DNA of 64,000 nt. It comes from Tetraselmis striata. Its lineage: Eukaryota; Chlorophyta; Chlorodendrophyceae; Chlorodendrales; Chlorodendraceae. Shown one piece after another: positions 8,396 through 64,000 of this stretch. Below the pieces are notes generated by a model, which worked only from the letters and a program-made list of their open reading frames with translations, was not told the origin of the DNA and made no database searches. The position numbers and the translations under genes were made by a program. The stretch is taken from NCBI GenBank assembly GCA_006384855.1, contig VCJN01000543.1, positions 124,001-188,000 on the forward strand, written 5' to 3'. How positions within the stretch are numbered: the first letter of the stretch is position 1; each line of letters opens with the position of its first letter.

Positions 8396-8418
8396 GGGGG
8401 GGGGGGGGGGGGGGGGGG
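8396..8418 (+). repeat. G23 homopolymer tract
   Basis: An uninterrupted 23-nt G run in CACTA copy B, followed 107 bp on by a C21 run at 8525-8545. The two are complementary, so the segment could fold or form G-quadruplex/i-motif structures. It generates misleading Gly/Pro-rich ORFs in both strands. Confidence 0.9.
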
Positions 8419-11167: not shown

Positions 11168-11595
11168 ACGGGCGGGTCTGGCAGCATCGCCCGTGCTTGT
11201 AAATAAGCGACAATGGATCACGTCATGCTCCGGTTGTACTCTTACACTTCCTCCACTTTGCGGGGGGGGGGGGGGGGTCCTGTCCTTATTACTTGCATCG
11301 GTGGACGTGCTGGATATGGAGGTCACCGGGCACATTGCGTGGTTCCGGAGTAGTACATGCGCGCCTCCTCGTCTTGGTTGCGATCGTCGCCCTAATCCAA
11401 TGCAGGGTGAGTAGAGGGACGCTGTGAACCCCCCCCCCCCCCCCCCCGGGGGGGGTATATGTAAACAAATATCCAGCCGTGCATGCGCCGCAATCGGTAC
11501 CCCATGAGCGGGGTATGTGACAGTGGTTTCGGAGCAGTGCAAGCATTCCGTGCGTGCACAAGCACGTACGACTGAAAATGAGGCGGGGGTTGCGG

Positions 11596-12390: not shown

Positions 12391-12478
12391 AAGTCATACG
12401 TTCCATTGTATGTATATACATACGTACATGTACTGCTCCGAAACCAGCCCAAACTTAATGAGTGCACAAGTGTAAATG

Positions 12479-12479
<1 letters not shown>

Positions 12480-12516
<37 letters not shown>
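12480..12516 (+). repeat. G37 homopolymer tract, longest in the window
   Basis: Thirty-seven consecutive G residues, followed at 12,598-12,615 by G18 and 12,617-12,624 by G8. It lies in CACTA copy B next to the palindromic module block and is not part of any credible coding exon. Confidence 0.9.
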
Positions 12517-12517
<1 letters not shown>

Positions 12518-13101
12518 GGCGGGGCATACACTCACACATACCCCGGTCATGCATGACAGATATTGCAAGCCGCGCCGGGTCGGCGGGCCGACCCGGCGGG
12601 GGGGGGGGGGGGGGGCGGGGGGGGTCTATTCAACTACACGTGCGACAGTGTCGTTTCGTGGAGCAGTATATGTGCCCGGCCTCATTTATACCGCCCCCTA
12701 CCTGCGCTGCATGGTCCACCCCTACGAATTACTTAGCACAAACCGCCATTACTTAATAGGAACCTAGCACGGCCAGGCTTATATGCCCGCTTTGCCGATC
12801 AACTTCTACGCACTTCCCGTCCCTCAGCCGCCGGACATGGGGGTTAAGCCGACAGCCTCGGCAGTTGCTTAGCCAGACTTGGCATCCCGTACCGTGTCCA
12901 TGGCTTCGCAGCTCTGCCGCCGGCACACGCCGAGTCCGGCGCTTGCTGCCGCGGGGTTGCGCACGCATGCACGCACGGTAATACGCCGCCGAAGCCGCCA
13001 CGCTTACTTCCACCACCGTCGCCAGCCGCAGCTTCGCACGCCGTTCCGCCGACATACGATACGCACGAATCCCCCCCCCCCCCCCCCCCCGTCCCCGCGT
13101 C

Positions 13102-14022
13102 ATGTATAATATATTCGAGGCGACTATGCGGGGCGCAGCACACGCCGCGGCGTGGGTCGGCGGAGCGGCGGGCGGCGGGAGCCCTAATGGCCGGGCAGTA
13201 TCCACACCCACACCGGCACCGCCGCTCACCTCCGACGCGGATGAACCGCTTCCCAATGGAAACATGCCGGTTGGTGGTAAGCGCAGCAGGCGTGGGGTGC
13301 CGGTGCCGGTACCTGTGCGATGAAGCTGTCGCGTCAGGAACCGCACCGCAACCGCAACCGCACCGCGTGTGGAGCAACACATGGCGGTGCCGGCCCCACC
13401 TATGTCTAGGGCCACCTCCTCACAGCACCCCGCCACGACGGCGTCGGCCACCGCCGACGGCGCCGTTGCGGGGGGGGGGGGGGGGGGGGACGCCCTGCCA
13501 GGCGACGATGATGCGCCTGATGCGCCGCGTCAGGAGGCGGGGGAGGCCGTGGTTGAGGCGACTGATAGGGCTGAGGGGGTTGTCGAGGCGAGCGAGGCTG
13601 CGCTCGCGCCACCCGCCCCGCAGCCACCTGCGAGACATGCCGACTTGCTCGTCGCCATGTTGACCGGAGCACTACGAGCAGTGGCGGGAGGCGGCCACAT
13701 GCACTATCATGTGCGTGTCCTGGCCGGACGCCCGTCATGCGTGTACTGCGGCCAACGGACGGACTGGGAGTGTTGTTGCGACGGGACCCCGGCTTTGTGC
13801 GGCCCCAAGTACCCATGCATGGCGACCCATCAGCGGGCAGTCCCCTGCCCGACCACGGCCGTGGTGCGGGCGGAGTTCCGCCATGTCAGGGACGTGTTCC
13901 ACGACGCGACTCGCGCCACCGTGTGTGAGGCTTCCGAGAAGGCACGCGCGGCTGGTAGGGTGCGCAGGGTGAGGCGGCGGACGGCCTGGGAGATAATGGA
14001 GAGCGAGACATGCCGTCAGTGA
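13102..14022 (+). pseudogene. cysteine-rich ORF of CACTA copy B, interrupted
   Basis: This is the counterpart of the intact 298-residue ORF at 63,589-62,693 in copy A. The frame is open except for a TGA at 13,321-13,323, where copy A reads CGG (Arg). The Gly run is four codons longer than in A because the G tract at 13,470-13,489 is 20 nt here and 8 nt in A. The C-terminal domain has CVYCG, a Cys triplet, ALCGPKYPC and a following His, resembling the zinc-binding tail of piggyBac-type transposases. That resemblance is inferred from Cys spacing only. It converges on the transposase remnant of this copy. Confidence 0.55.
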
Positions 14023-14065
14023 AGTCGGGCGCAATGATATTGGGTGGGGCACACGGGCGTGTAAC

Positions 14066-14400
14066 ACTTGCACTTTGCGCGTACGGCTGGGTTACATCCA
14101 GGCGGCGTCACACTATGCAACCGGAAAGGCTGCGTTGCTACTGCAAACGATGCTACGCCTCACTCGGTAGCAACCGTTGCTCCGCTTATCCCAAAGCCGC
14201 TGCCCCCCCCCCCGCCCCCCCCCCCGGCCCCCGCGGGATCCCCGCCACCAGCATCTTGCACTTGCACTTTGCGCGTACTGCTGGGTTACATCCAGGCGGC
14301 GTCACACTATGCAACCGGAAAGGCAGCGTTGCTACTGCAAACGATGCTACGCCTCACTCGGTAGCAACCGCTGCCCCGCCTATCCCACAGCCGCTGCCCG
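14066..14400 (+). repeat. direct duplication of a ~140-bp segment in copy B
   Basis: The block starting TTGCACTTTGCGCGTAC and ending near TATCCCA with GCCGCTGCC occurs at about 14,067-14,205 and again at about 14,263-14,400, differing by a few bases. Copy A has this block once (about 62,545-62,650, opposite strand). The duplication is therefore specific to B. Both copies end in C-rich runs. Confidence 0.75.
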
Positions 14401-14431
14401 CCCCCCCCCCCCCCCCCCTCCCCCTCGCGCA

Positions 14432-14789
14432 TTGTAAGTACTCGTGGCAGTACTTAGTGAAACATGGCTCTTACACGTAGCGTTTGGCGAATTGAGTTGG
14501 TTGCAGAATGTAATCTCTTACAAGTTGCTGGTGGCATTCGATATTTATCCTATAGCGGTCCGACTCGGCACCGCGGACAGGCAGCTAGTATCATGATGAT
14601 TAAGGAGTTGTAGCGCGTACTGTATGTTACAAGGAATATTACTGGCGTTTGGTTGTGGAAGTACCAGTAAATAATACGCGTGCTGAAATATCAGTACGGC
14701 AGTACATGCGCGTGCTGAATACTTGGCCATAATCTCGGCGTCACTGGTTTATGGTGGTATTAGGGTAGTCGCTAGGCGCAACCCAAACA
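14432..14789. mobile_element. ~358-bp insertion in copy B, solo-LTR-like
   Basis: Comparing copy B with copy A (around 62,495) shows an extra segment here, flanked by CGCA at 14,428-14,431 and 14,790-14,793; copy A has the site once as TGCG on the opposite strand. From 14,433 the insert begins TG and ends CA (TGTAAGTACTCG to CCCAAACA), as a solo LTR would. The flanks would then be CGCAT and CGCAC, an imperfect 5-bp duplication. No coding sequence is present. Solo LTR is the best guess; an unclassified short element is also possible. Confidence 0.5.
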
Positions 14790-16440
14790 CGCACCGTCCT
14801 GCGACCTCGCGTGGATCCCCGCCACCAGCAGCTCGGGGGCGTACCCGCCCAAGTCGGCAGCATTCGCGGAGGACATGTGGGCAGGGGCCATGAGAACAAC
14901 CACCTTGCGGATGCCCGGACCGTCTAGGAGGACAAGGGCCTCCTCCCCGCCGGAACTACCGCCACCTCCCGGCACTCTCCACAAGTCGAAGCCCGGGGCA
15001 GTGTGGGCTCGTTCCAGCGTCCACACCGTACACAATGCAGCCCTATGGGCCGCGCGCTGGCATGGCTGTCGTCCGAGTCAGCCCCCGGCGGGGGCGGCGG
15101 CGTGGCAAGGTAGAAGTGTTGAGCTCGCGCGACCATGGTGGTGTACTTGGCGTCTTCGCGCTCCGCCAGCGGGCATGCGGATAAACCTGTCGGCATTGCA
15201 CTCCGGGCAATGCTGGTCGGGGAGGTTCGCCAATCCGCCAGCCTTCCCGGCCCCCCCCGCTGAACGCCACGCACCCCTTGGGGCACATGTGCCGGACATA
15301 TCTGGATGTATCGGGCACCTGCATGCATCGGGAGGCGAGGAGCGTGAGGGGCCTGACACCCCAAGACGTGCCGCGTCAAGCACGCACCCAGGCAGACATC
15401 CCGGCCGTACCCGCAGGAACTTCCGCATCGCCTTGTGGCTGCGTGGCACGACCATCCCACCCAAGGTGAAGCCGGTGGGCATGATGTCATGCAGCAGCTG
15501 CCAGTCGCTGTCAGCGGAGTTGTTGGAGTTCTTGCTCTTCACATGGGCCGAGCACTTCATGACTGCAAACGTGAGGGCATTCGTGTCGGACCCCGGCACA
15601 ACAGCAGACTCCCACGCCCGGAGGTGCGCCGCTTCCTCCTCCTCCTCCTCTTCGCTCGTCCACCCGGCGCCAGCCGCGTCCCCCCCCTTCCCAGCCCTCC
15701 TCTTCGGATTCACTGGACTGGTCATCGCCTTCATGGACGGTTGCCAAGCGAGCCTCCCCGTCCGCATCCACAGGGGGGTGCTCCTGGGCAGCCGCCATAG
15801 CCTACACAACCTGCCACGCCGACCGGGCGGGTGCGTGTGATTCCATACAACCGCAGGTGAGTGGTGCCACCAGCACACAGGCCGGGCCCACTCACCTCTG
15901 AACGCAGAAGATCCACAGTGTCACCGTCCTCAAAAACAGCGCGCCACTGGGTCGCCCCGCCGTAGATCTCCAACATTCACTCGGTAACGACGCCGGTTGT
16001 CACGCCGTAGTGCCATACTCCCCGGAACTTCTTGGCGATGACCTTCATGTAGAAGTCACCGGGATCGCCTTCCCGTATCACGCCCTCGTCGGCGGCTTCC
16101 ACGCCCGCCGGCGGCCACGCAGGCGCGTCGATGTCCATACCGTCTTCGCCAACGGGGTCCTCGCCCACGCCCATCACATCGTCCTCCTTCGAGCCGCCGT
16201 CGTCCGACACCGGCGCCGGCGGGCCGTTTCCGACGGCTGCAGCTACTCCTGCTCCCGCCCATGTTGCTGCCGCCCCTGCTGCTGCTGCTTGTGATAAGGC
16301 GGCCTTGCGGCGCAACTTAGCCGCACGCTTCAACGAGTGGCTACAGTTCGGGTGTTTTAGGAAGTGCCGCTCTCGCACCGTCTTATCACTACTGCCAGTC
16401 ACCCAGCCCTGGCAGTGCTTGCATGTGTACACGCCATCCT
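14772..16440 (-). pseudogene. Tnp2-type transposase remnant in CACTA copy B (core deleted)
   Basis: The N-terminal zinc-finger exon (about 16,440-15,977) aligns with copy A, including CKHC and HFLKHPNCSH. A TGA at 15,979-15,977 replaces the Trp codon TGG of copy A. The second exon, including an acidic Glu run near 15,640, follows to about 15,430, and then the CPKGC-region sequence. At about 15,178 the sequence jumps from the equivalent of 59,735 in copy A to the equivalent of 62,113, with a short ATGCCCG filler. This removes about 2.4 kb that encodes nearly all of the catalytic domain. The C-terminal segment resumes and ends near 14,790. This copy cannot make a functional transposase. Confidence 0.75.
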
Positions 16441-16764
16441 GCGACACACTCGATATCCATCCCTTTCCCGGCATGCTTGCTGCTGCGCGCGCGGGGGGGG
16501 GGGGGGGGGGGGGGCTGAGAGTTGGGGGTGGATGTAACCCACCACCGGCAGGCAGCAGAGATGCGAGTGCGCGGCTGTCCGCGCTTGGTTCAGCGCTGAT
16601 CGGCGGTGACCGTGAGGCGACCCCGTACTTCATGCGCGTGCTGGGGCGTTACACAATCATCAGCAGTAGTTCATCATCAGCAGTTAAGGCGGCTGCATTT
16701 TAACGCGCACCTACGAACACCACCTGCCGCCTACCACTTACCGTACCACCTACATCCGCCCACA

Positions 16765-16860
16765 CATCCGCCCGTCGTGCCGCACAACGCCGCACAACGT
16801 GCCGCACATCGCCTCACACCGCGGGGTCACCGATGTGCAGCGATGTGCAACGAGTACGTG
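16765..16860. repeat. CACTA copy B subterminal repeats
   Basis: Repeated GTGCCGCACAACG / GATGTGC-type 10- to 14-bp units lie about 240-330 bp inside the 17,099 end. The same motif array occurs at 58,040-58,140 and 56,540-56,580 in copy A, and near 9,440-9,540 close to the other end of B. CACTA elements typically carry subterminal binding sites for their regulatory protein, so these are candidates for that role. Confidence 0.55.
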
Positions 16861-17077
16861 CAGCCGCCTGTACTTAGCCCGGGTGCTCCGCGTCGGCGCG
16901 CGACACGCGAGCCCGCGTGCGCATATCAATTTGATGAAATTATCGAAACGAGAAATTCATATAGTACTTTACAGGTCGCGCAAGATAGTCGTCGCTACTC
17001 GGTATGAAATCCACGTCCCTCGTCCGTCCCGCATCGTCCCTGTATGTCGTCGTTCGTCACCAGTAGGGCACATTTAC

Positions 17078-17099
17078 GTCACATCCCAATCTCACAGTG
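17078..17099 (-). repeat. CACTA copy B terminal inverted repeat (high-coordinate end)
   Basis: Read on the minus strand this is CACTGTGAGATTGGGATGTG. It is followed inward by GACGTAAATGTGCCC, which copy A shares at 56,293 with one base fewer. The CAC target duplication is at 17,100-17,102. Confidence 0.85.
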
Positions 17100-18525
17100 C
17101 ACGCGCCAGGCATCCCCGCAGTCAAGCGAGCTGCGTACGTCGACAACGTACCACCAATCTCTTGAAAAGTCCGGCGCAACAGCATGTAAGACAAGGTTCC
17201 ACCACGCACGGGAGTCGGGTATAGAAAAGCGCCTCGTCGTTACAAGAGCTACAAGCGACATCACATGGTGTTTTACGCGAGAGATGCGGGCGTTCACCTG
17301 GCCCCACTGCGAAGATGCGGGTAATGCCACCCCTCACGGTTAATTCTCTCCACCCTCCGCATCTCTTACTCGCCAGTCTTGCCAGCCTTGTTGCTTTGAC
17401 GTCCGCGAGGATGCTGTACTCGTCGTCCCCAATGTGGGCCTCCGGGTTCCAGTGCCGCATCTCTTTTGCCGCCGCCATGGTTCTCGCTGTCTCGTGCTTG
17501 CGACGGCGGGCCTCGTCCTCGATGTCGACTTCAAGCAGGACTGCAGGCATGCCGGGGACATGATAGGATAGAATTTGCCACTTCGGTCCCCGCGTCATCG
17601 CGCATGTGTTGGGGTTCAGGCTCTCGAAGATGCGGAAGCAAGGGGTGACACCGGCGAGGTCCTTGTATCTCGGGCATCCTAATGCGAACGCAGGGTTGAC
17701 GCCTCCCTTGCGCGAGCTGGCGTGGACATCTTGTGCATGCAAGAGGAAAGCAAGGCCAGGACGCGAGTATGTCGCAGCGTCCTCGTTTCCTTGGCAGACG
17801 TCCGTGCGGTAGCGGTCGTCCGCGACGCCGAGGGGGACGAGAGATTTGCTTTGCGCAAGGCGCCCAGTGCAGAGATTCCGGACCTTCCGGAGCTCGGCAA
17901 GGACCTCCGGCCGCTTCTGCTCCAGCCACCGCACGACGCCAAGCGGCGACGCTGCTGCGACTTCCCACTGGGCGGAGATGCAGGGAGAGACAGGCGCGAG
18001 GATGAGATTCTACCCCGACTAGCGTCTATAACATAATGGCACTGTGGAAGGCGAAGAGGGGGGGGGCGACTCACGATTCGAGGTGCAGCCCACTTCAAGG
18101 CGTCGACAATTGCCACATCTCGCCCCCTCCGGACGGCAGTGAGTGGCGCGCAGCAATTGAGAAAGATTATGAGGAGCAGCCCCCTCGCCACGCCGTCGAC
18201 ATGGGCAGGACCCGAGCCGCAGTCCTGGTCTGCCATGACGAGGGCGTTGTGCCGGGCAATGTAACCAGGAGACGAGATTCGCATTTGCTAGTGAGCTTCT
18301 TGGACATACTCGTTGCAAATAAATGCCCCGCAGCTCGTTGTACACAAGCCGGTGGTCTTCGGAGACCAGGTGCATTTGCGGAGAACCTTGCGCCATGGGG
18401 GTCACTAGCAGTGTGTCGAGAGCCCTCGTTGGTTCAAAACCAAGTGCAATTGCATATGCCCCCGCCACATGATTCTGCAATAAGCGGGCATAGGTGCGTT
18501 TTGCTCTGCGAGGACGGTTTGCCAT
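17100..18525 (-). pseudogene. 5' half of unknown gene split by CACTA copy B
   Basis: Minus-strand coding begins plausibly at ATG 18,525 (MANRPRRAKRTYARLL) and changes frame near 18,290. It runs to a donor at about 18,078 (GTGAGT). It resumes after TTATAG at about 18,030 with a long open exon to about 17,310, which includes GPKWQILSYHVPGMP and an Ala/Lys/Glu-rich helix (RRRKHETARTMAAAKEMRHW). After a possible intron or frame change, the frame with FSRDWWYVVDVRSSLDCGD runs to the transposon edge at 17,100. The rest of the gene is at 7,878-7,373. I recognise no domain in this half. Frame changes suggest it was already decaying, or has unmodelled introns. Confidence 0.4.
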
Positions 18526-26300: not shown

Positions 26301-27110
26301 TCTGCCCATCTGCCCCGTTGCGAACTACAAGCACCGCATGCATACCGCTTTGAAAAATCTGTTGGCTTACGTGGCGATCGAAGCGGGGGCGGTGCTCGAC
26401 CGGGACCGCTCGGGAGTCGGCGACTCGACCCTTGAGACGAGTGGGCTGCGCCCAGCGGACCGCTCGCGACCGTCATATTTGACGCTGCCGGGGTGGGGGG
26501 GGGGGGGGGGGGGGGGGGCGTGCGATAACATGACTGATTTCGCGTGCATGTCCTCCACGACCCCCACTTGGGGCAACGACCCCCGCTAGCTGGTGCACCC
26601 GGGGGATCGCGTCGACCGAGGCGGAGCGCAACAAGCTAGGCTAGCGGCAGACCGGGCGTCTTCCACCCCGGTGCATGGTGTTCGCCGGTACTACCCTTTT
26701 GTGGTTGAAGACCGCGGCCGCCTCGGAAAATCCGCTTTAACGGTGGTCTACATCTTCGCGGTGTTACTTGTTGTGCGCAACTTCCCTTGCAGTCCTACCT
26801 TCCGCCCCGACTTCATGCTTCCTTCGTGGTAAGTCCGTCCAGGCTCTTCGAAACTTTGTTGCCAGCCAGCCCGCTGAGTTCCGCCATCACCTGTAGTCGC
26901 GCACGCGGCGGGGGTTGTTGCAGCGAGTCTCTGCTTGCGTGCATGTACCTTGGGCGGCATTCTCTTTGCCGGAGTGCAGACGGCCAAGTCTGATGCGTTT
27001 GCCCGTGCTCATTCCGCACCCTCTTCTGGTGCTGCTTCCACCTCGCAACTGATGTAGTGGACTTTTCCTGATCGCCTTTTGCAGCTAGCTCATGTAACTA
27101 TATATTCTTA
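23390..27110 (+). mobile_element. degenerate LINE-type (non-LTR) retroelement
   Basis: Order along the plus strand: a CCHC-like knuckle (MCDGCGRMSHSSEN, last Cys replaced by Ala) at about 23,590; the RT domain at about 24,250-24,830; a post-RT region with CGGLNMALLPSE at about 25,300; a C-terminal region with VVDHLPICPVANYKHRMHTA at about 26,300; and a final ORF segment plus 3' region at 26,640-27,110. The last part is repeated at about 42,275-42,765. There is no LTR. The 3' sequence ends CAGCTAGCTCATGTAA then an AT-rich stretch. A G24 run (26,495-26,518) interrupts the C-terminal part. Confidence 0.6.
24025..26589 (+). pseudogene. reverse transcriptase of the LINE-type element
   Basis: The frame from about 24,250 has FLDIRNAFNEVSR, the RT box with its metal-binding Asp. 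SRTGVRKGD follows, where intact enzymes have GDPLG. A frame change at about 24,630 leads to FADDCGAANAAAHV, the FADD form of the YxDD catalytic box, in the frame starting 24,630. An in-frame TAG at 25,110-25,112 interrupts the thumb-like region, and further frame changes occur near 25,250, 25,640 and 25,850. The C-terminal 'DH...C...H' segment is in the frame 25,855-26,589. The element is clearly dead, but family and order of domains are readable. Confidence 0.6.
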
Positions 27111-41589: not shown

Positions 41590-42270
41590 ATGGCTCTACC
41601 ACGTACGCTAGTCGCTACGCGTAGGTCTCGCTCAGCGCCGCCCCGGGCCGGACTATGAACGAATATGGTGTATCGCGGCGCCTGGTACTACTCGCACCAC
41701 GACACTGCTGCTTGTAGTGTGTTCGGTTCGAGCGAACGGCAGAACTAGGGGGCTTGCGCAGCGGGTACTTGCGCTTATGTAGTCGCTAGACGGTACGCAA
41801 CACGGACATCTCGCGGGCATGTGCTAGTCCGGTGCGTGTAGTCGCTACGGGCTTTCATGCAGGTGGTCAACCCATTATCCAAAGTGGAACTACCAGTACG
41901 GGCACCTCCTTTCATCCGGTCTGTGGTTCAGGCGCGCGCCGCAGCAGCCCAGCGCGCAGAACCGCAGCCCCGCCAGGGCCTGTGAGGGCCTGCTGAGATC
42001 CAGGATGGACCCTACCCGTGCCAGGACCAGCATTGATTTCCTGATTCTTGGGAACTGCCCTTTTTGTAATTCACACCAGGACCAGCAGCTACTGATGTCG
42101 GACCGAAAGTGATTACGACACATATGTGTTCTCTCGGATAAAAAAAGGCACCGCGTAGAGTATCTGGTACATAGAAAAGATGATAGTAGCCTACGACATT
42201 TGTCGTTACAATAGAAATATAATAGTACTATGGTCACAATCTCAATAAATGCCTTGTATGATATTATACT
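41590..42270. other. spacer with dispersed short repeats
   Basis: The motif GTAGTCGCTA occurs several times (for example at about 41,779 and 41,839) and also near the edge of the 14.4-14.8-kb insertion. The sentence CTGCCCTTTTTGTAATTCACACCAG at about 42,056 recurs at 47,036 and in variants at 46.7 and 47.2 kb. No gene is recognised. Confidence 0.5.
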
Positions 42271-42770
42271 AAGTTGGCAGCGGACCGGGCGTCTTCCGCC
42301 CCAGTGCAGGGTGTTCACCGGTACTACCCTTTTGTGGTTGAGGACCGCGGCCGACTCGGGAAGTCCGCTTTGACTGTGGTCTACATCTTCGCGGTGCTGT
42401 TGGCTGTGCGCAACTTCCCTGGCGGTCCTTCCGCCCCGACCTCTTGCTTTCTTCGTGGTCAATCCGTTCAGGCACTTCGAAACTTTGTCGCCGGCCAACC
42501 TGCTGAGTTCCGCCGTCACCTGTCGCGCACACGGCGGGGGCTGTTGCAGCGGGTCTCGGCTTGCGTGCATGGTACCCTGGGCGGCATTCTCTCTGCCGGT
42601 GTGCAGATGGCCAAGTCTGATGCGTGTGCTCGTGCCCACTCTGCGTCTTCTCATGTTACTGCTTCCACCCTCTAGTCGATGTAGAGGACCTTTCTGATTG
42701 CCTTTTATTTTGGTGATTTCCGATATCGCCTTCTGCTGCTAGCTCATGTAATTTATTTGTTCTATATTAT
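42270..42770 (+). mobile_element. 5'-truncated LINE copy (3' end only)
   Basis: This segment matches the last ORF part and 3' region of the 23-27-kb element (26,640-27,110). Both encode YYPFVVEDRGRLGKSALTVV and YIFAVLL. The copy here stays open further (LRNFVAGQPAEFRRHL to the TAG at 42,673), so it preserves the C-terminus better than the longer element. It then carries the related GCTAGCTCATGTAA 3' sequence. 5' truncation is what target-primed reverse transcription produces. Confidence 0.65.
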
Positions 42771-52944: not shown

Positions 52945-55900
52945 TCACGCGCCCAACATCTGCATGGCGAACTCCGCGTGCTTCAGCCTTCCCAGAGGCT
53001 TGGTGAGTGCATCCGCAACCATCTGTGCAGTCGGGCAGTACTCAATTGCCACCTCCCCGCTGAGCACCTTCTCCCGTGTGAAGTGGTACTTGATGGCGAT
53101 GTGCTTGCTGCGACCATGGGTCATGGGGTTGCGCGTCGGCGCAATGCAGCTCTGGTTGTCCTCGAAGATCACTGTGGCCTCGGACTGAGCACAACACAGT
53201 TCGCGCAGCAGCTCGCGCAAGAACAGCGCCTCGCACACAGCAGCACACAACGCCATGTACTCCGCCTCCGCCGTTGACAGCGCCACAGTGGCCTGCAGCT
53301 GCGACTTCCAACTCACTGCAGCTCCACAAAGCATGAAGACGAAGCCAGTGGTGGAGCGTCGTGACACCACGTCTCCAGCCCGGTCGGCGTCGCAATACCC
53401 GTGCAGTAGGCCGTCAGCCTTGCCCCCACTGAAGGTCAGCCCCAGGGTTTTGGTACCCTTCAGGTATCGCAGGACTCGCTTGGCAGCCTGCCAATGGCGC
53501 TCTTCAGGCTTAGCCATCACCCTGCACAACTTGCTCACAGCTTCGGCAATGTCGGGGCGGGTAGCCACCATCGCGTACAACAGGCTGCCCACAAGGGCTT
53601 GATATGGCATCTCAGCAGCCAACGGCTTGTTGCTACCGGGGACATCGGCACCAACCTCCGCTGGGGTGCTCACAACGTAAGCGTCAGCAAGGTTGAACTT
53701 GTGCACCATGTCATCAATGTACTTGGCATGATGCACCTTCAGCGTCGCGTTGTCCCAGTCTCGCTCCACCGCCATGCCTAGCGCCCAGGCACAGACGCCC
53801 AAGTCCTTGATGTCAAAGCGGGCGCCTAATGCCGTCTTGAAATCCGCGGCCCATACTGCGTTCTTGAAGGCAAAGATCATGTCGTCCACGTAAACCACCA
53901 GGATGCAGATCAACTGCCCACCCTGCCAGTAGACGTACGCGCCAGGGTCGGACTTCAGCTGCTGAAACCCGTAGCACACCAAGAACTTATGCAAGGTGTT
54001 GTGCCAATTTCGGGGTGATTGCTTCAGCCCGTACATGCTCTTCAACAAGCGCAAGACCATGGGCCGCCCTCTTCCATCGTACTGCTCATAGCCAGGCGGC
54101 GGCCTCATGTAGATCTCCTCCTCCACTGGAGCATACAAGAACGCCGTGTCGACATCAACATGATGGATATTCCAACCGTATTGTACTGCAATCGCAAACA
54201 GCACTCGGATAGTGGTGAACTTCACGGTCGGTGCAAAAGTCTCTGCATACTCGATGCCATGTCGTTGACGGCAGCCTTGGACAACCAGTCGGGCCTTGAA
54301 GCGCGCGATACTGCCATCAGCGTTGTATTTGACCTTGAATACCCATTTGCTGGGAATGGCTGTTCGCTCCTCTGGTAACTCGCACACCACCCACGTGCCC
54401 TGCTTCTGCAACGAGTTGAATTCAGACTCTACGGCTTGCGCCCATTGCTCCTTGAACGGTCCGGACAGGGCCTGCTTGAGCGTGATGGGCTCATCGACAC
54501 CCTGTGTCACTGCCGCGAATGCGGCGGTCATTATAGCTGCAGCGTCGCCGTTGGGGTTTTCCGGATGCACGACCCACCATTGCCCAGGAGCTCGGCGAGA
54601 ACGAGCAGGGTAGGGGTCCCTCTCAGCACGCTGGACTATAGATTCCTCTTGCCCACCATCGTCGGTTCCCTCGTTTTTCTCCAACTGGGTCAGCTCCAGC
54701 GTGGGTCGCTGCGGTCCAAGTTCTAGTTCCTCCGCAGTCAGTGGCTCCTCCTCAATCTCAAGCTCCTCCTCAACGTCGTCCGTTTCATCCACGACACGCC
54801 GGTGAGCCTCGGTTATTTCTTGCAGCCGTGATGCGTCGGACGTGCTGCCAACTCCGCCGTTATCGAGAAGTGCCTAGTATTGGGGGAACATCTCAAAGCT
54901 TGCAGCAGCATCGCCCCCACTGCTCCCCTTGCTGCTGGAAGCCGCATCACGCCAACCCTCATCGAAAATCGCATTCCGACTTGCAACCACGCGGCGAGTA
55001 GCTGGGTTCCACACCAAGTAGGTGTGAGATTCCTGCCCATAACCAACGAAGACCCCGCGAAAGGCCTTGGCGTCAAGCTTCCCCCTATTCCCGGCATCCA
55101 CGTGCACATACGCTGGACAGCCGAACACCCGCAACCCAGCCACATCTGGGGTCTTGCCAGTGTGACGCCGGTAGGGAACAGAACCGACACCCCGACTGTA
55201 GACATTGTTGCGGATGTGCATCGCGGCACAGAAGGCCAGCGCCCATAACTCACGACCCAGGCTAGCATGTAGCAGCATAGCCACCGTCATCTCGGGCAGA
55301 GTAAGCCACATACGCTCCTGCAGACCATTCTGCCATTGGCGGTATGGCGCAGAAAACTCTGGAACGAAGTGCAGGCCATCGCATGCAGATCGAAAATCCG
55401 CACTCTGGAAGACTGAGTCGTTGTCCAATCTCAGGCGAGCTGTACTCTTGTCGTATCCGAATCGGGGATGCACGCGCATGATAGCGCGCACCACCAACAG
55501 CAGAGCCCTCGGAGCCTCATCCTTGGACTTCATGAACACCACCCAGCCGTATGCCGAGTAGTAGTCAGTCATCCCAAACACGTAACGGAACCCGCCAATG
55601 GACGTCACACCCACTGGCCCCCAGATGTCAGCTCCAAACTTCTGCAGTGGCCCAGTAGGACGCTTTGATGCAATGCGCGACCGCGGCTGTTCGTGAGACT
55701 TCGCCAACGCGCAACAGTCACAAAACGGCATTATCTCATCCTTCGCGAACGTGATCCCCGAGACGCTCTCCGCAAGCAAACGATCCATGCCTGCAGCATG
55801 CAGATGGCCAAGACGTCTGTGCCACAGCAAGTTTGACAACTTCCCACAAGCTTGCAGCGCAACAACATCCGCAGGGTTGGGCGCATGCCCGCTCCGTAGT

Positions 55901-56292
55901 ATTCTGCTGCGGAAAGCGTACAAGTTGCTCCCCGGAGCGCGCCTGATAGGGACCGTCATATCACGGCCAGCAGAGTGCAAGACCATGGAGTCCCCGTTGG
56001 CCGTGTAATGAAACGAAGCGCCACGCTCCTGCGCCAACCGCTGGCTAAACAACCTGCGGTAGCCATGCTTTGTTTTGCCCGGCAAGTCCGGGACATGCAG
56101 AACCCCACGAAGCACACTGCGTACTTCGCCGCCATCGGCTCGAACAACCATCCAGACCGTCCCCCGGCCCACCGCCAGACAGCAAATACCCCCCACCTCA
56201 ACCGGTCGTGCAAACTGCTCATACTCCACGAAGCTGTCAGAGTCAGCCACCATATGCGGATACGCCCCACTATCCTTCACCCACATGTCCGG
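52945..56292 (-). pseudogene. Ty1/copia pol (protease, integrase, RT, RNase H), one TAG, 5' part cut off
   Basis: A single minus-strand frame runs from the CACTA insertion at 56,292 to TGA at 52,945. It is broken only by TAG at 54,876-54,874, between the integrase and RT halves. In order: WVKDSGAYPHM (aspartic protease), HRRLGHLHAAGM...CDCCALAKSH (integrase HHCC), ADIWGPVG...TDYYSAYGW and NGLQERM (integrase core D and E regions; the second Asp is in LRLDNDSVF, where DNG is usual), AFLYAPVEEEIYMRPPPG, VYVDDMIFAF (RT YVDD box), STAEAEYMAL and ADALTKPLG (RNase H). The order protease-integrase-RT-RNase H is diagnostic of Ty1/copia. Gag and the 5' LTR must lie on the far side of the CACTA element. 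Without the TAG the domains look nearly functional. Confidence 0.85.
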
Positions 56293-56314
56293 CACTGTGA
56301 GATTCAGATGTGAC
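56293..56314 (+). repeat. CACTA copy A left terminal inverted repeat
   Basis: CACTGTGAGATTCAGATGTG, followed by ACGTAATGTGCCCTACTGGTGACGAACG. It is identical in design to both ends of copy B. The upstream flank CCGGACATGTGG is copia coding sequence. Confidence 0.8.
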
Positions 56315-56945
56315 GTAATGTGCCCTACTGGTGACGAACGACGACATACGGGGACGATACGGGACGGACGAGGGACGTGGATTTCATACCCAGTAGCGAC
56401 GACTATCGCGCGCGACCTGTAAAGTACTATATGAATTTCTCGTTTCCATAATTTCATCAAATTGATATGCGCACGCGGGCTCGCGTGTCGCCCGCCGACG
56501 CGGAGCACCCGGGCTAAGTATAGGCGGCTGCACGTGCTCGCTGCACATCGCCGCACATCGCTGCACATCGCTGCAGACCGCGGGGTCGCTGGCGTCGCAG
56601 TGCGCCACGCTGGCGGGCCGCGCCCCCGGCCCCTGCCAAGGAGTAATCACGATAAGTACTGGCACGGCCGACTCTCGCACAGCAATGGTGCTTAGTTCGC
56701 GCGAAGCGTTGCGGCACAGCATGCATGTGCCGGCAGGGTGCCGGGAGTGCTTGGCAAACCCGGATCGCAGGCTGCCGGCATGCGATCATGGCTTGCGCGG
56801 CAGTCACGGCGGAGGTGTGGCCGGTGTCGCGGAGGCGCTTTTTTTACATTGCTGGGCATCACTTCGCCGTTGTGGGCGGTGCCCACCACAAAACAGCTCT
56901 TGCCTAATGTTCTATACATATGAAATTCAGACTTTAGGGGGGCGG

Positions 56946-57773
56946 CTAGGGCACCTTCGTGAGGTCTGCCACAGTTGGAAGCCGCGCCAAGTGTTCCCTG
57001 GAAGCTGTGAGGATACTGTGCCTCCTTGGGCTTACCGTTGGGAAATACCCCTCGCGCCACTTATGAATGGGTTCCATGTGCGCAAGCCTTGGCGGGGAAG
57101 TCGCGGTCCACGTCAAAGGGGCATAGGGGAGGAAAGACCCGACGTGATGCGTGCTCCCGGGGATTGCCGCTCTGTATGTCTCCCACTTGTGGGCTTCCTT
57201 TGTGATGTCGGACAAGAACCGGCTGAATCTGTCCGTCTGAATCCATGTGTGGGTGAGGGCTTCTTGCACCACGCATGCGGTCAGCCGCATGAGTTGGAAC
57301 AGCGAGAACTGCTCCGCGTGGGCCCCAGTGAGGAGAGGCTCCATAGCCCCGTCGTCATCGTTCTCGACGAGTACAGCGGCATGCTTCGCAGCGATCTCGA
57401 GCATATCCTCGGCGCCTTGCAGCCACACCGAATCCGAACCGCGGAGGTATTTGAGACGCGTATCAGCGTCGACGATGTCCCCGTCCAGATCGGGCTGATC
57501 AAGCAGGAAGAGCTTGTACTGGGCGAGCGCGTCCGCGCCGACATCCAGCAAAGTGTGCCAGTGCCAAGCGTGGCGCAGGGAGCGGTAGAGGGCCGGGTTG
57601 CTGGACCGGGTGGGAGTCCAGCCGCCGGGGAGATGGATGTATTCCCCTCTCATGTCCTCGTCGGTGAGTCTATTTTGTAGCGTGTTCTCCTCCACGCTCG
57701 CGTATGCTAGTTGGGTGCGTGTACAGCGCTCCACCATCCTGGCCCTTTTCTGGGGTGTCATCGATAGTGCCAT
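56946..57773 (-). CDS. 275-residue ORF near the left end of CACTA copy A, absent from copy B
   Basis: Intact frame from MALSMTPQKRARMVERC to a TAG at 56,946, divergent from the transposase gene. It is mildly acidic and helix-rich, with many Trp and His, no Cys cluster and no domain that I recognise. It sits between the terminal region and the GATGTGC subterminal repeats. CACTA elements often encode a second, DNA-binding regulatory protein (TNPA in En/Spm). Position makes that a candidate role, but nothing in the sequence proves it. Copy B has no equivalent, so it was either deleted there or gained here. Confidence 0.5.
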   Translation of the reverse strand: MALSMTPQKRARMVERCTRTQLAYASVEENTLQNRLTDEDMRGEYIHLPGGWTPTRSSNPALYRSLRHAWHWHTLLDVGADALAQYKLFLLDQPDLDGDIVDADTRLKYLRGSDSVWLQGAEDMLEIAAKHAAVLVENDDDGAMEPLLTGAHAEQFSLFQLMRLTACVVQEALTHTWIQTDRFSRFLSDITKEAHKWETYRAAIPGSTHHVGSFLPYAPLTWTATSPPRLAHMEPIHKWREGYFPTVSPRRHSILTASREHLARLPTVADLTKVP

Positions 57774-58039
57774 GGTGGGTGGTGCAACTGGTGACCCTTC
57801 GTCGCCTCTTGTGATTGATATCCTTGCGAAGCAGGCGGCGTCGCGCGTCCGTACCGTCGCGGCGCTGCTGCGCGATATACATATCGGGGAGTGGGCAAGT
57901 GCTGCCGTCGCTAGGTGTGCGTGAACATAAAGATAAGCGGCGATATACACCCGATATTAGCCCGGTGTATTGACGCTTATTTGCGTAGTCGCAGCGCGAG
58001 TAGTAGTACGATGTATCGGTGCAGTCCCGGGCGCGCGCC

Positions 58040-58140
58040 CCCACGACGTGTGCGCGCGCGATGTGCGGCACGTTGTGTGCGGCGATGTGCGGCACGTTGT
58101 GCGTCACGTTGTGTGCGGCGATGTGCGGCACGGCTGACGG
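58040..58140 (+). repeat. CACTA copy A subterminal repeats
   Basis: At least seven overlapping units of GATGTGCGGCACG / TTGTGTGCGGC. The same array is at 16,765-16,860 in copy B. CTGCACATCGC units also appear at 56,540-56,575. Confidence 0.65.
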
Positions 58141-58433
58141 AGGTGTGGGCGGATGTAGGTGGTCCGGTAGCTTAGGTGGCTAGTAGGCGGTAGGTGGTGT
58201 TCGTAGGTGCGCGTTTTAATGCAGCCGCCCTAACTGCTGATGATTGTGTAACGCCCCAGCACGCGCATGAAGTACGGGGTCGCCTCACGGTCACCGCCGC
58301 TCACCGCTGAATCAAGTAAGCGCGGACAGCCGCGCACTCGCATCTGTGCTCCCTGCCGGTGGTGGGCTACATCCACCTCAACTCTCAACCCCCCCCCCCC
58401 CCCCCCCGCCCGCGCGCGCGCGGCAGCAGGCAT

Positions 58434-61400
58434 GCCGGGAGAGGGATGGATATCGAGTGTGTCGAAGGATGGCGTGTACGCATGCAAGCACTGCGAGGGC
58501 ATCGTGGCGGGCAGTAGTGAAAGGGTGGCGCGAGACCGGCACTTCCGAAAATTCCCGAAGTGTAGCCACTCGTTGAAGCGTGCGGCTAAGTTGCGCCACG
58601 TGGCCGCCTTACAACAAGCAGCGGCAGCAGCGGCAGCAGCAGCAGCAGCAGCAGCAGCAGCGGCAGGGGCGGCACCAGGAGTAGTTGCAGCCGTCGGAAA
58701 CGCCCCGCCGGCGCCGGTCTCGGAGGACGATGTGATGGGCGTGGGGGAGGACCCCGTTGGCGAAGACGGTATGGACATCGACGCGCCTGCGTGGCCGCCG
58801 GCGGGCGTGGAAGCCGCCGATGAGGGCGCGATACGGGAAGGCGATCCCGGTGACTTCTACATGAAGGTCATCGCCAAGAAGTTCCGGGGAGTATGGCACT
58901 ACGGCGTGATAACCGGCGTTGTTACCGAGTGGGTGTTGGAGGACTACGGCGGGGCGACCCAGTGGCGCGCTGTTTTCGAGGACGGTGACACTGTGGACCT
59001 TCTGCGTTCAGAGGTGAGTGGGCCCGGCCTGTGTGCTGGTGGCACCACTCACCTGCGGTTGTATGGAATCACACGCACCCGCCCGGTCGGCGTGGCAGGT
59101 TGTGGAGGCTATGGCGGCTGCCCAGGAGCACCCCCCTGTGGATGCGGACGGGGAGGCTCGCTTGGTAACCGTCCCTGAAGGCGATGACCAGTCCAATGAA
59201 TCCGAAGAGGAGGGCTGGGAACGGGGGGGGGACGCGGCTGGCGCCGGGTGGACGAGCGATGAGGAGGAGGAGGAGGAGGAGGCGCACCTCCGGGCGTGGG
59301 AGTCTGCGGCTGTGCCGGGGTCCGAGACGAATGCCCTCACGTTTGCAGTCATGAAGTGCTCGGCCCAGGTGAAGAGCAAGAATTCCAACAACTCCGCTGA
59401 CAGCGAGTGGCAGCTGTTGCATGACATCATGCCCGCCGGCTTCACCTGGGGTGGGATGGCCGTGCCACGCAGCCACAAGGCGATGCGGAAGTTCCTGCGG
59501 GTACGGCCGGGATGTGCCTGGGTGCGTGCTTGACGCGGCGCGTCTTGGGGTGTCAGGCCCCTCACGCTCCTCGCCTCCCGATGCATGCAAGTGCCTGATA
59601 CATCCAGATATGTCCGGCACATGTGCCCCAAGGGGTGCGTGGCGTTCAGCGGGGCGCCCGGGAAGGCTGCCGAATGGGCGAACCTCCCCGACCAGCACTG
59701 CCCGGAGTGCAATGCCGACAGGTTTATCCGCACGCCGCAGTCCCTGAAGCTCACGGCTGCACGGGTTTGGTACGTCTTGAGCGTGGTGGACATCATCAAG
59801 GGCTGGTTCCGAGACCCTGTGTGGTACGCTTGCTGGAAGAAGGGGACGGACGTGTCTATCAACGCCTTCCGCGCCTCGTCGGAGGCGGAGCGCCTGAATG
59901 AAGGCGGGCACGGCACCGGCCTCGCCGCGGGAGACTTCCTCCATGCCGACAACGGGATCTACACACTCACAGATGATGGCTTCCTGTCGCACCTTCGGGC
60001 CACCCAGTCTGTCACCGGGGTTGGGATCAGGTGTGAGGACATGCCGCCCCACATGCTGACCTCCAGGAGCAACTGGCACCCAGTCGCACTCATCGGGCCC
60101 CCGGAGCCGCCCAACCTGGGCAAAATACTGTTAGAGGTGCTGGACGAGCTCGCGGTGCTTGGCGAGCATGGAGTGAGGGTCACCCCCGCAGACGGGGGGG
60201 AACAGTTCGTGCACAAGGTCTTCCTCGGTACGTGGGTGTGTGACGCCCAGGGCAGACGAAAGATCTTTATGCGGGGGGGGCCTAGCCAGCTCAGAGGTTG
60301 CCCCTGGTGCCGTCTGCGGAGCCATGTGGAGGGCCCGGACGGCACGGTGAAGGTGGCGCCTGCGGGGTATGCAAAGGACGTCATCCAGAGGGTGGATGGA
60401 GTAGAGTACCAGGCTGTGCGCACAGGCGCGAGCTGCCTCCTGCTCTCCGGCGACCAGATGCTGGAGCAGATGGGCGTCATTGGCCAGATAGAGGAGGACT
60501 TGGCCAAGTCGGCCCTTGATTGGGATGAGGTCGGCGAAGTGAGCCCCGCTGCCCGGCGTGCGTTCAACACAACCCGGCTGGAGCAGGCCAAGCAGAACAC
60601 TGGCTGCCATGGCGTGTGCCAGGTGCCTGTGGTCCTGGGCTATGTCAGCATGGTCAACCTCTTCCCCCTCGCGCCGGACCACCTGTGCTTTTTGGGCTTG
60701 GGAAAGGACTTTTGGAGGAACTTCCTCGACGTGTTGGGCCACGTTGGATTTCGGGCTATGAAGCAGGAAGACCGGCGCAAGGCTTTAGTCCTGATACCCA
60801 GCAACTTTGGACGCGGGTTGCGCCCTTCGTTTGCGGTGTCCAAGAAGTCGAAAGGTAAGCCCCCCCCCCCCCCCCCCCCCCATGGGCGTGGGCGGCGTGG
60901 GCGGGCGCGGGGGCGTGACGGCATTCCCCTTCATGACTGCAGGGTCAGGCAAGGTGACGGTGCTGTCCGGCTGGGTCATAGAGGACTGCTGGCACCACTC
61001 GGAAACGTTTTCCCTTCTTACCGCCGGTCCGCTGTTCGAGGAGGCCCGGGTGAAGGCAATCATGACCGGGAAGGAGCTCGCGTCCCCAGCGGTGATGCGT
61101 GCGGTGTCGCAGCTGGGGGTGCTTGGGCACATGTACAAGCGCCTGCAAGGAGCTGTGTGGTTCGTCACGCGGTGGGGGTTGCAGAACGTGGTGACGGAGG
61201 AGGACGGCCCTGAGCGCAAGGCGCAGGTGGACGCGCTCACCAGGGAGGGGAGGACTCGATACCTAGCGGACATCACCGTGTATGCCCGCCTGGCTGAGGG
61301 AAACGGCTTCGTGTCGCTCCTCGTCTCCAACTTGCACTCGGCGGTGTGCCGCATGATCCACCAGATGCTGGCTTGCGGGCACCCCCTTGCGGAGCTGTGG

Positions 61401-62529
61401 ATGGAGAACCTCATGGGCTTCTTGAAGGCGGGCGCCAAGCGCGTGCTGCCGAAGAATGTCTGCGAGACCATGATGAGGGACCTCCTTTTCGCGCAGCAGA
61501 TCAACCGCCTGAAGGCGCATCGCCTCTACCGGGAACCCAACCCCAACAAGAAGGTCTCTCCCCCCCCCCCCCCCCCCCCCCCCGCCTCTTGCTGCCTCCT
61601 CAGCCACGTGCACCCATACCCACCCACCCACACACACACACACACACACTCACACTCACACTCGCACTCACAGCGCCCCACCCACACACACAGGGGTACA
61701 TGGCCCCAGACGACGCAGGCCCCGGCGCCGTGGAGACGCCCATCCGGTTGGTTGGGAGCGCATCCGCTGCGTGGGAGCACGCGGTGGACTTCAAGGACCA
61801 TTTGGAGAAGCTGTTGGACGACGTCCGACGTACGGTGCAGGGCTCGCACTCGTATGCACCCATACTCGCGGGGTGGGGTGCGGTCCTGCCGGGCTGGAGC
61901 CCCAGCGGTGGCGCTGGGGGGGCTCCTGGCCTACAAGGCGGCGTCGCTTCGCAACGGCGACAAGCCCCGGCTTCACCGGGGGGGGGGAAGACGGGGAGAC
62001 GTCGAGAGACAACTCCTTCTTTGTGTACAAGATGTTGAAGCAAGTCCCCGACGCCGACCCACCCCCCTACACCACCGAGGAGCTGGAGAGCGAGGAGGAG
62101 CTGCCAAGAAACCTGCTGGCGGAGCGCGAAGACGCCAAGTACACCACCATGGTCGCGCGAGCTCAACACTTCTACCTTGCCACGCCACCGCCCCCGCCAG
62201 GGGCTGACTCGGACGACAGCCGTGGCAGCGCGCGGCCCATTCGGGCTGCATTGTGTACGGTGTGGACGCCGGAACGAGCCCACACTGCCGTGGGCTTGGA
62301 CTTGTGGAGAGTGCCGGGCGGCGGCGGTGGATCCGGCGGGGAGGAGGCCCTTGTCCTACTAGATGGTCCGGGCATCCGCAAGGTGGCTGTTCTCATGGCC
62401 CCGGCCGACATGTCCTCCGCGAAGGCTGCCGACTTGGGCGTCGACGCCGGGGAGCTGCTGGTGGCGGGGATCCACGCAAGATCGCAGGACGGTGCGCGAG
62501 GGGGGGGGGGGGCAGCGGCTGTGGGATAG
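58434..62529 (+). CDS. Tnp2-type (CACTA) transposase, multi-exon, core open
   Basis: Exons: 58,434-59,013; 59,099-59,500; about 59,590-60,854; 60,943-61,553; 61,694 on to 62,529 (last exon needs one or two frame changes near 61,915 and 62,010, next to G runs). Exon 1 has a zinc-finger-like CKHC...HFRKFPKCSH, an Ala run and FYMKVIAKKFRGVWHYG. Exon 3 has CPKGCVAFSG, PDQHCPECNADRF, NWHPVALIGPPEPPN, LRGCPWCRLRSH and PDHLCFLGLGKDFW. Exon 4 has VSNLHSAVCRMIHQML and ELWMENLMGFLK. This order matches Tnp2/Transposase_21 proteins and the region that follows them. The C-terminus includes FFVYKMLKQVPD. Introns contain C22 (60,860-60,881), C24 (61,560-61,583) and a CA-repeat. The core from 59,600 to 61,550 has no stop, so the protein may still be made. 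It converges on the cysteine-rich ORF. Confidence 0.75.
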
Positions 62530-62692
62530 GCGGCGCAGCGGTTGCTACCGAGGGAGGCTTAGCGTCGTTTGCAGTAGCAAGGCAGCCTTTCCGGTTGCAT
62601 AGTGTGACGCCGCCTGGATGTAACCCAACAGTACGCACAAAGTGCAAGTGTTACACGCCCGTGTGCCCCACCCAATAACATTGCGCCCGACC

Positions 62693-63589
62693 TCACTGAC
62701 GGCATGTCTCGCTCTCCTTCATCTCCTGGGCCGTCCGCCGCCTCACCCTGCGCACCCTACCAGCCGCGCGTGCCTTCTCGGAAGCCTCAGACACGGCGGC
62801 GCGAGTCGCGTCGTGGAACGCGTCCCTGGCATGGCGGAACTCTGCTCTCACCGCGGCCGTGGTCGGGCAGGGGACTGCCCGCTGATGGGTCGCCATGCAT
62901 GGGTACTTGGGGCCGCACAAAGCCGGGGTGCCGTCGCAGCAACACTCCCAGTCCGTCCGTCGGCCGCAGTACACGCATGACGGGCGTCCGGCCAGGACAC
63001 GCACATGATAGTGCATGTGGCCGCCTCCCGCCACTGCTCGTAGTGCTCCGGTCAACATGGCGACGAGCAAGTCCGCATGTCCCGCAGGTGGCTGCGGGGC
63101 GGGTGGCGCGAGCGCAGCCTCGCTCGCCTCGACAACCCCCTCATCCCTATCAGTCGCCTCTACCACGGCCTCCTCCGCCTCCTGATGCGGCGCATCAGGC
63201 GCATCGTCGTCGCCTGGCAGGGCGTCCCCCCCCGCAACGGCGCCGTCGGCGGTGGCCGACGCCGTCGTGGCGGGGTGCTGTGAGGAGGTGGCCCTAGACA
63301 TAGGTGGGGCCGGCACCGCCATGTGTTGCTCCACATGCGGTGCGGTTGCGGTTGCGGTGCGGTTCCTGACGCGACAGCTCCGTCGCACAGGTACCGGCAC
63401 CGGCACCCCACGCCTGCTGCGCTTACCACCAACCGGCATGTTTCCTTTGGGAGGCGGTTCATCCGCGTCGGAGGTGAGCGGCGGTGCCGGTGTGGGTGTG
63501 GATACTGCGCGGCCATTAGGGCTCCCGCCGCCCGCCGCTCCGCCGACCCACGCCGCCGCCCGCATAGTCGCCTCGAATATATTATACAT
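62693..63589 (-). CDS. 298-residue cysteine-rich ORF of CACTA copy A, intact
   Basis: Runs from MYNIFEATMRAAAWVGG to TGA 62,693. The N-terminal half is Pro/Ala/Gly-rich with basic patches (GGKRSRRGVPVPVPVRRS). A middle acidic/Ala segment follows. The C-terminal domain has CVYCGRRTDWECCCDGT, then ALCGPKYPC and MATHQ, then an Arg-rich tail (RVRRVRRRT). Cysteine/histidine spacing resembles the zinc-binding C-terminal domain of piggyBac-type transposases, which binds DNA. This is resemblance only. The ORF converges on the transposase gene with about 160 bp between stops. Being open here and nearly full-length in copy B suggests selection within the family. It may be a DNA-binding accessory protein. 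Confidence 0.6.
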   Translation of the reverse strand: MYNIFEATMRAAAWVGGAAGGGSPNGRAVSTPTPAPPLTSDADEPPPKGNMPVGGKRSRRGVPVPVPVRRSCRVRNRTATATAPHVEQHMAVPAPPMSRATSSQHPATTASATADGAVAGGDALPGDDDAPDAPHQEAEEAVVEATDRDEGVVEASEAALAPPAPQPPAGHADLLVAMLTGALRAVAGGGHMHYHVRVLAGRPSCVYCGRRTDWECCCDGTPALCGPKYPCMATHQRAVPCPTTAAVRAEFRHARDAFHDATRAAVSEASEKARAAGRVRRVRRRTAQEMKESETCRQ

Positions 63590-63600
63590 GACGCGGGGAC

Positions 63601-63624
63601 GGGGGGGGGGGGGGGGGGGGGGGG
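63601..63624 (+). repeat. G24 tract of copy A, C20 in copy B
   Basis: Twenty-four G residues directly upstream of the cysteine-rich ORF's first ATG. The orthologous tract in copy B (13,071-13,090, opposite strand) is 20 nt, so its length differs between copies. Confidence 0.9.
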
Positions 63625-64000
63625 AGTCGTGCGTTTCGTATATCGGCGGAACGGCGTGCGAAGCTGCGGCTGGCGAAGGTGGTGGAAGTAAGCGTGGCGG
63701 CGTCGGCGGCGTATTACCGTGCGTGCATGCGTGCGCAACCCGGCGGCAGCAAGCGCCGGACTCGGCGTGTGCCGGCGGCAGAGCAACGAAGCCATGGACA
63801 CGGTACGGGATGCCAAGTTTGGCTAAGCAACTGCCGAGGCTGGCGGCTTAACCCCCATGTCCGGCGGTTGAGGGACGGAAAGTGCGTAGAAGTTGATCGG
63901 CAAAGCGGGCATACAAGCCTGGCTGTGCTAGGTTCCTATTAAGTAATGGCGGTTTGTGCTAAGTAATTCGTAGGGGTGGACCATGCAGCGCAGGTAGGGG

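Follow-up and report, generated by a model that had tools for sequence, protein, structure and literature searches.

The maize element En/Spm and its derivative dSpm are a CACTA/EnSpm element with defective derivatives. A 16.5-kb Jozin CACTA element of Chenopodium carries a satellite array near its 3' end (171-bp unit, 32.5 monomers), and Peptidase_C48 is reported in some CACTA elements (PMC8978399, PMC7320549). A further account describes the CMCT group (EnSpm, Plavaka, ESTA, Transib and others) as having 5'-CA..TG-3' ends, target duplications of 2-5 bp and a C(2)C motif after the second D, and states that an H(3-4)H motif is common to the entire group (PMC12730594).

The 64,000-nucleotide stretch of Tetraselmis striata DNA analyzed here, which we call the window, contains two related elements in inverse orientation: copy A (56,293-64,000, plus strand, running on beyond the window to contig base 189,364), defined by its alignment to B and to left-end loci elsewhere in the genome, and copy B (7,879-17,099, minus strand). 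It is probable that both belong to one abundant family of large cut-and-paste DNA transposons that works in the manner of CACTA/EnSpm elements, and that the core deletion of B was a single event whose product was then multiplied in trans. Set beside maize En/Spm and dSpm, by traits rather than by sequence comparison, the family shares CAC...GTG ends, 3-bp target duplications, a transposase-bearing minority and multiplied, internally deleted derivatives. It differs in lacking the H(3-4)H motif and in having a transposase that the Pfam Transposase_21 profile does not recognize.

CACTG/CAGTG-type ends and 3-bp target duplications are traits of the family, both ends having been read in B and in C1633, a full-length relative of 12.7 kb. 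C1633 runs from CACTGTGAGA to TCTCACAGTG, so that CACTGTGAGA is found as an inverted repeat at either end in the 5'-CAC...GTG-3' arrangement; it is flanked by TAA on both sides, and its transposase reads left to right with further genes on the opposite strand. B has CACTGTGAG at one end and, with one change, CATTGTGAG at the opposite end, and lies between CAC duplications at 7,876-7,878 and 17,100-17,102. B is thus complete between its termini at 9,221 bp, extending well past the right half that the initial annotation had correctly aligned to A. Left ends were compared in the best 30 of 41 matches (40 of 1,255 loose candidates were scored). All 30 loci, A included, start with the same bases, CACTGTGAGATT (56,293-56,304 in A, plus strand, directly preceded by CGG at 56,290-56,292), and the preceding triplets are of 26 different kinds. 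We recognized no published account of the family in the open-licence PMC literature, which does not establish its absence from print.

Copy A contains several coding stretches. On the plus strand, an N-terminal ORF (58,432-59,178) has a possible zinc-binding CxxC...H...C stretch by eye and no Pfam match over cut-off. It is followed by two transposase core exons with predicted limits, exon 1 (59,534-60,856, 441 residues open) and exon 2 (60,942-61,556, 205 residues open), and by a third coding stretch (61,706-62,528). A second ORF of 384 residues, on the minus strand (62,693-63,847), is open. The core exons contain candidate residues of a D-D-C(2)C-E-like arrangement, assigned by eye: D169 (60,038), D237 (60,242) and the CPWC motif C256xxC259 (60,299-60,310) in exon 1, and the candidate catalytic E155 (61,404), within ENLMGFLK, in exon 2. 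These residues are invariant in 13/13 copies of exon 1 and 9/9 copies of exon 2, but their constancy says little, given that 309 of the 441 columns in exon 1 and 170 of the 205 in exon 2 do not vary either.

The two core exons of A are open, as the initial annotation held, but the Tnp2 identity it gave them was not matched by any profile: Transposase_21 (Tnp2) is not among their Pfam matches at E<=10, and the sole match is unrelated and far below its own cut-off. Among 17 different ORF stretches from A, B, C1633 and the copia-type host of A, only the copia ORF gave Pfam matches above cut-off. A search of the genome with the PF02992 profile gave no match; the controls were equally silent, and the result is therefore uninformative. 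The H(3-4)H pattern between the second D and the E is missing from both core exons, the nearest being H132-x7-H140 in exon 2. A single-sequence AlphaFold prediction for 419 residues of exon 1, made without an alignment, had a mean pLDDT of 30.4 and gave no usable model, and a pattern search for close relatives of exon 1 returned one match in viral_contigs and seven in genome_contigs, of which none was confirmed. Since both the Pfam and the H(3-4)H tests fail, strict EnSpm membership is unproved. Compared with the CMCT group, the family is alike in its 5'-CA..TG-3' ends, its duplication size and its candidate C(2)C following the second D, and differs in the absence of H(3-4)H.

The elements also carry a tandem array with a unit of 368-375 bp, which recurs in many family copies. 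The copies of the unit in B lie at 11,577-12,451; in A its anchor lies at 64,306, 64,681 and 65,056, counting on beyond the end of the window. One family locus (L069, 2116-3531) shows an H...D...Q-x5-C pattern. Peptidase C48 (Ulp1) has H, D, Q and C residues at a characteristic spacing, and the pattern resembles this triad by motif only; neither Pfam nor a PDB sequence search gave a match for this ORF. The family resembles Jozin as a large CACTA-like element with a satellite array, and differs in its 368-375 bp unit, found in many copies, and in a C48-like triad recognized by motif only. We tentatively raise the possibility, which we hold to be less likely than the general placement above, that the family is a deeply diverged EnSpm-like (CMCT) branch that escapes the profiles, in which the H(3-4)H zinc ligands were lost or rearranged and a 368-bp expandable satellite is a standing part of the element.

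Comparison of core exon 1 between A and other copies indicates that the core frame has recently been under purifying selection. Of the five copies nearest to A that were used, four give a dN/dS of 0.16-0.20 and the fifth, C1397, gives 0.57; few changes underlie these close comparisons. For eight more diverged copies dN/dS is 0.46-0.76, overlapping the wrong-frame control (0.55-1.76, obtained from six diverged copies only). Exon 1 is stop-free over at least 436 of 441 residues in 22 of 99 matches, A included (95 of 1,451 candidates scored), and has a frame-shifting gap in C1814. Some copies elsewhere in the genome may be active now or may have been so recently.

Copy A itself, proposed earlier as an autonomous copy, is probably a poor candidate, cut short and broken, because no right end was found and a run of G shifts its frame. 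The element interrupts a copia-type integrase ORF (54,874-56,276, minus strand) in which SH3_retrovirus, Pol_BBD and gag_pre-integrs exceed their Pfam cut-offs and rve falls slightly under (30.7 of 32.6 bits). Relatives of this ORF in the genome comprise 40 matches at 98-100% identity, the window copy counted, and two sibling copia copies read ACATGTCCGGGTAGCTTCC across the uninterrupted site. A transposase-bearing copy would have jumped into a copia element and afterwards, or in assembly, lost its right end and gained the frame shift. A breaks off at contig base 189,364, 1,364 bp beyond the window, inside a tandem array and without a right terminus. The initial annotation expected a right end and a second CGG beyond 64,000 and named the absence of a right terminus as evidence against it; only the left CGG is present, and the 18.6 kb that follow the break contain neither a right end nor the copia continuation (a complete insertion would read CAGTG-CGGGTAGC). 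The G run of A, at 61,916-61,922 in the third coding stretch, is seven bases long where 6/6 siblings have six, shifting the frame into a stop. Further stops in spliced transcripts of A, the other outcome named as adverse, are suggested by this shift, given the predicted splice sites.

The seventh G could stem from faulty sequencing and the break at 189,364 from faulty assembly, in which case A might be intact in the living genome. The break does fall within a tandem array of the kind in which two other contigs (C2339 and C1432) terminate, and the indel lies in a homopolymer, in a coding stretch where other runs of G and C vary from sibling to sibling. However, the contig, 336,406 bp long, extends 147 kb beyond the break, and the sequence that follows the break belongs to a different repeat family, with 20 of the 44 matches in its search starting at its tenth base, as a real junction would give. 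We regard an intact A as unlikely.

The inverse alignment of A and B reported previously is borne out. Its four main blocks (89-94.5% identity) pair B 12,695-14,256 with A 64,000-62,453 (cut by the window end), 14,790-15,173 with 62,496-62,112, 15,172-16,822 with 59,736-58,082, and 16,828-17,100 with 56,563-56,292. Likewise present are the two stops of B, TGA for TGG at 15,977-15,979 (minus strand) and TGA for CGG at 13,321-13,323 (plus strand), the latter in the counterpart of the 384-residue ORF. B was said to lack exactly the catalytic core. The jump from A 59,736 to A 62,112 is there, at 15,172-15,173, but B is also without A 56,564-58,081, a segment with a 336-residue minus-strand ORF (56,946-57,956). 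Decay of B was ruled out as the cause of this second gap: C1633 lacks nearly all of the segment, and 23/30 left-end loci lack it, the other 7/30 keeping it wholly or partly. Judged from these sequences, its presence or absence is a subfamily difference.

A more specific reading, in which A is intact and autonomous and B descends from it as a defective copy, draws on the open core exons of A, the low dN/dS against its four close copies and the missing core of B. Besides the absent right end and the G run, it is contradicted by the distances: A and B differ by 5.93%, B differs from another full-length copy by 5.66%, and A differs from its close copies by only 0.74-1.09%. A 200-base probe across the deletion junction has 280 loose candidates in the genome; 40 of these were scored, and 40/40, B among them, span the junction, so the core-less form has multiplied and the deletion in B is inherited. 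The TGA at 15,977 is nearly private, with exact matches genome-wide for TGA in 2 (B and one other) versus TGG in 975. On this sequence evidence B did not arise from A by decay, and descent of B from an intact A is very improbable. The pair shows no direct A-to-B decay, contrary to its proposed use for tracing it, and neither window copy is a good autonomous reference.

Core-deleted copies fall into more than the group of B. In 22/30 left-end loci the sequence departs from A at one common point; the median difference between these loci is 0.44%, the other edge of their deletion lies at A 60,550 as mapped in one locus (L016), and 0/22 have one of the 67 listed core tags nearby. Exact 21-mer counts in the genome were 975 for a left-ORF tag, 67 for a transposase-core tag and 0 for controls. 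Core-deleted copies thus keep their termini and have multiplied, both ends of a core-less copy having been read for B alone. The deletion of the B subfamily would have arisen once, and we infer that core-less copies were mobilized in trans by the transposase of relatives elsewhere in the genome. Spread chiefly by segmental or satellite-type duplication is the least credible alternative: the family has expandable arrays, and one pair among the 22 near-identical loci (L025/L030) has 242 bp of left flank in common at 97.9%, with the match ending at differing distances from the element, but over the last 300 bp of the remaining left flanks only two pairs match, weakly, at 78-80%, the terminal start base is identical in all fetched copies, and B has its 3-bp duplication. 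The En/dSpm parallel drawn for A and B therefore fits the family, with its multiplied core-less groups and its 975 versus 67 tags, and not the pair, since B does not come from A.

Across the genome, this large transposon family has been overrun by defective copies of its own making, through two separate, multiplied core deletions. Satellite arrays borne within a transposon can also be studied in it as a test case. If the family is indeed a diverged branch with the satellite as a standing part, every jump would seed a new satellite array.

Copy A, which runs from window position 56,293 past the window's end, aligns in a window self-comparison with the inversely oriented copy B (7,879–17,099, CAC on either side) in four main inverse blocks of 89–94.5% identity, reproducing the initial annotation. 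B is far longer than the half that aligns with A inside the window. Both TGA stop codons of B (15,977–15,979 and 13,321–13,323) are as first described. The alignment of B jumps from A 59,736 to A 62,112, confirming that B lacks the catalytic core, but this is not exactly all it lacks, as segment 56,564–58,081 of A is missing from B too. B also carries a tandem duplication and about 360 bp of additional sequence (14,430–14,789 and 14,065–14,429), found neither in A nor in a full-length relative on contig C1633. Elsewhere in the window, 26,636–27,080 and 42,269–42,706 form a direct dispersed repeat of 84% identity.

B had been taken for a defective partner derived from A, which the distances and the distribution of its deletion contradict. 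Mismatch over aligned bases is 5.93% between A and B, 3.03% between A and the C1633 copy and 5.66% between B and the C1633 copy; for the copies on C2608, C1814 and C900, chosen because they matched A's core best, mismatch to A is 1.00%, 0.74% and 1.09%. B thus represents a separate, older branch. A 200-base probe across B's deletion junction aligned end to end, at 94–100%, at all 40 scored places, B included (40 scored among 280 loose candidates). The codon at 15,977 is TGG in 975 exact 21-mer matches; TGA occurs twice, in B itself and at a site on C1278 whose 21-mer is slightly different. Among the matches listed, four junction-bearing copies on C19, C70, C142 and C164 carry TGG about 0.9 kb away, as expected. 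Together, the common junction, the TGG in these four copies and the nearly private TGA make it most likely that the deletion preceded the multiplication and that B's own stop arose last.

The left terminus of A is exact, because all 30 fetched left-end loci, A included, begin at the identical base; 26 different triplets precede them (the 30 are the best of 41 rows, from a search that scored 40 of 1,255 loose candidates). The ORF that A interrupts is of copia type and is recognized by Pfam. Two sibling copia copies are uninterrupted across the insertion site and read ACATGTCCGGGTAGCTTCC, which fits a CGG target. Counting the window copy itself, at least 40 rows match the copia sequence at 54,874–56,276 with 98–100% identity, which suggests that this family was recently active. 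A extends to contig base 189,364, where it stops within a three-unit tandem repeat. A right end had been expected beyond the window, and in the 18.6 kb after the break neither the element's tail (simple G/C runs were the only matches) nor the continuation of the interrupted copia was found. The sequence there (L002:1365–2164; 121 loose candidates) belongs to a different, diverged repeat family, at 73–80% identity to the window's contig copy; 20 of 44 rows of its search start at base 10 past the break, placing its edge about 10 bp away. In this assembly A lacks a right end.

The two core exons of A, 441 and 205 residues long, are open frames. Among the five closest copies compared, four (C1814, C2608, C900 and C724) give an exon 1 dN/dS of 0.16–0.20 against A, values based on few changes and with a one-base gap in C1814; the figure is 0.57 for the fifth (C1397) and 0.46–0.76 for eight more diverged, mostly damaged copies. 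For exon 2 the values are 0, 0, 0.31, 0.47 and 0.48 against the five close copies and 0.51–0.72 against four others. A wrong-frame control, two frames in six diverged copies only, gave 0.55–1.76 with 6–16 stops. Selection on the core frame is thus indicated, not proved, because the close copies differ by few changes and the control covers diverged copies only. A is not unique: exon 1 spans at least 436 of 441 residues without a stop in 22 of 99 rows, A among them (95 of 1,451 candidates scored). In the third coding stretch, a run of seven G in A corresponds to six G in six of six comparable siblings, and A's frame, open through both core exons, runs into a stop after this run. A is therefore not a good candidate for an autonomous element, as had been proposed: it lacks a right end as assembled and is probably frame-shifted. 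Translated in four siblings, this stretch is open as far as read in C2608 (its middle part in another frame), C1814 and C724 (read only to the end of the fetched piece); C900 has a stop despite six G, so the stretch is easily broken in this family.

The C1633 copy (L069, L070) has both ends, CACTGTGAGA...TCTCACAGTG, spans 12,745 bp and is flanked by TAA on both sides. Its core is broken: exon 1 has one stop as well as frame-shifting gaps, and exon 2 has one stop. Segment 56,564–58,081 of A is nearly all missing from it; among the 30 left-end loci, the segment is whole or partial in 7 and absent in 23. The C1633 tail, missing from A, contains an opposite-strand ORF of 472 residues (L069:2116–3531) with histidine, aspartate, glutamine and cysteine at a Ulp1-like spacing; neither Pfam profiles nor a PDB sequence search recognized the ORF.

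A second core-less structure is common to 22 of the 30 left-end loci, breaking from A at 59,202. In L016, the sole copy mapped further, the sequence resumes at A 60,550, and both candidate catalytic aspartates are therefore lost. Pairwise difference among the 22 has a median of 0.44% (range 0–3.5%), and none lies near any of 67 core tags. Over the last 300 bp, the left flanks of the 22 show no relationship, apart from two pairs with weak 78–80% matches and L025 and L030, which share a 242-bp match at 97.9%; this match ends at unequal distances from the element, as would follow if two insertions had entered copies of one repeat. The group looks like a recent burst. Genome-wide, a 21-mer from the left ORF was counted 975 times and one around the candidate core glutamate 67 times (control, 0 for both); the resulting ratio, about 15 to 1, gives no more than an indication, because both counts are lower bounds and the tags may differ in conservation.

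The tandem unit measures 375 bp in A and 368 bp in long arrays elsewhere (L036–L064; C2339:61,300–73,851, L071 and L072). The array at C2339:62,848–73,151 holds 28 unit lengths, and the fetched pieces on either side are still array, to the contig end, giving at least 28 in one array. Arrays on C2339 and C1432 reach contig ends; where other flanks were read, they are element sequence: the left flank in C2384 and the tail-side flank in C1432. A common tail piece occurs in 14 loci on nine contigs. This transposon-borne unit resembles the satellite array near the 3' end already known from Chenopodium quinoa CACTA elements (PMC8978399, section 10).

The family has the termini and 3-bp duplications of CACTA/EnSpm elements. 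A core pattern D...D...C(2)C...E, assigned by eye, is constant in the copies examined, as are most columns. The Tnp2 core ascribed to A stands as to its open exons, but Pfam found no Transposase_21 in it. The core also lacks the H(3-4)H motif, which PMC12730594 describes as common to the entire CMCT group; a single-sequence fold of the core gave no usable model. The family can thus be said to work like a CACTA element, with EnSpm membership not proven given the missing domain and motif and the unusable fold. The comparison with En/dSpm fits the family but fails for this pair: A belongs to the transposase-bearing class but is truncated and probably frame-shifted, and B represents a core-less form that was inherited, exists in many copies and most likely spread in trans.
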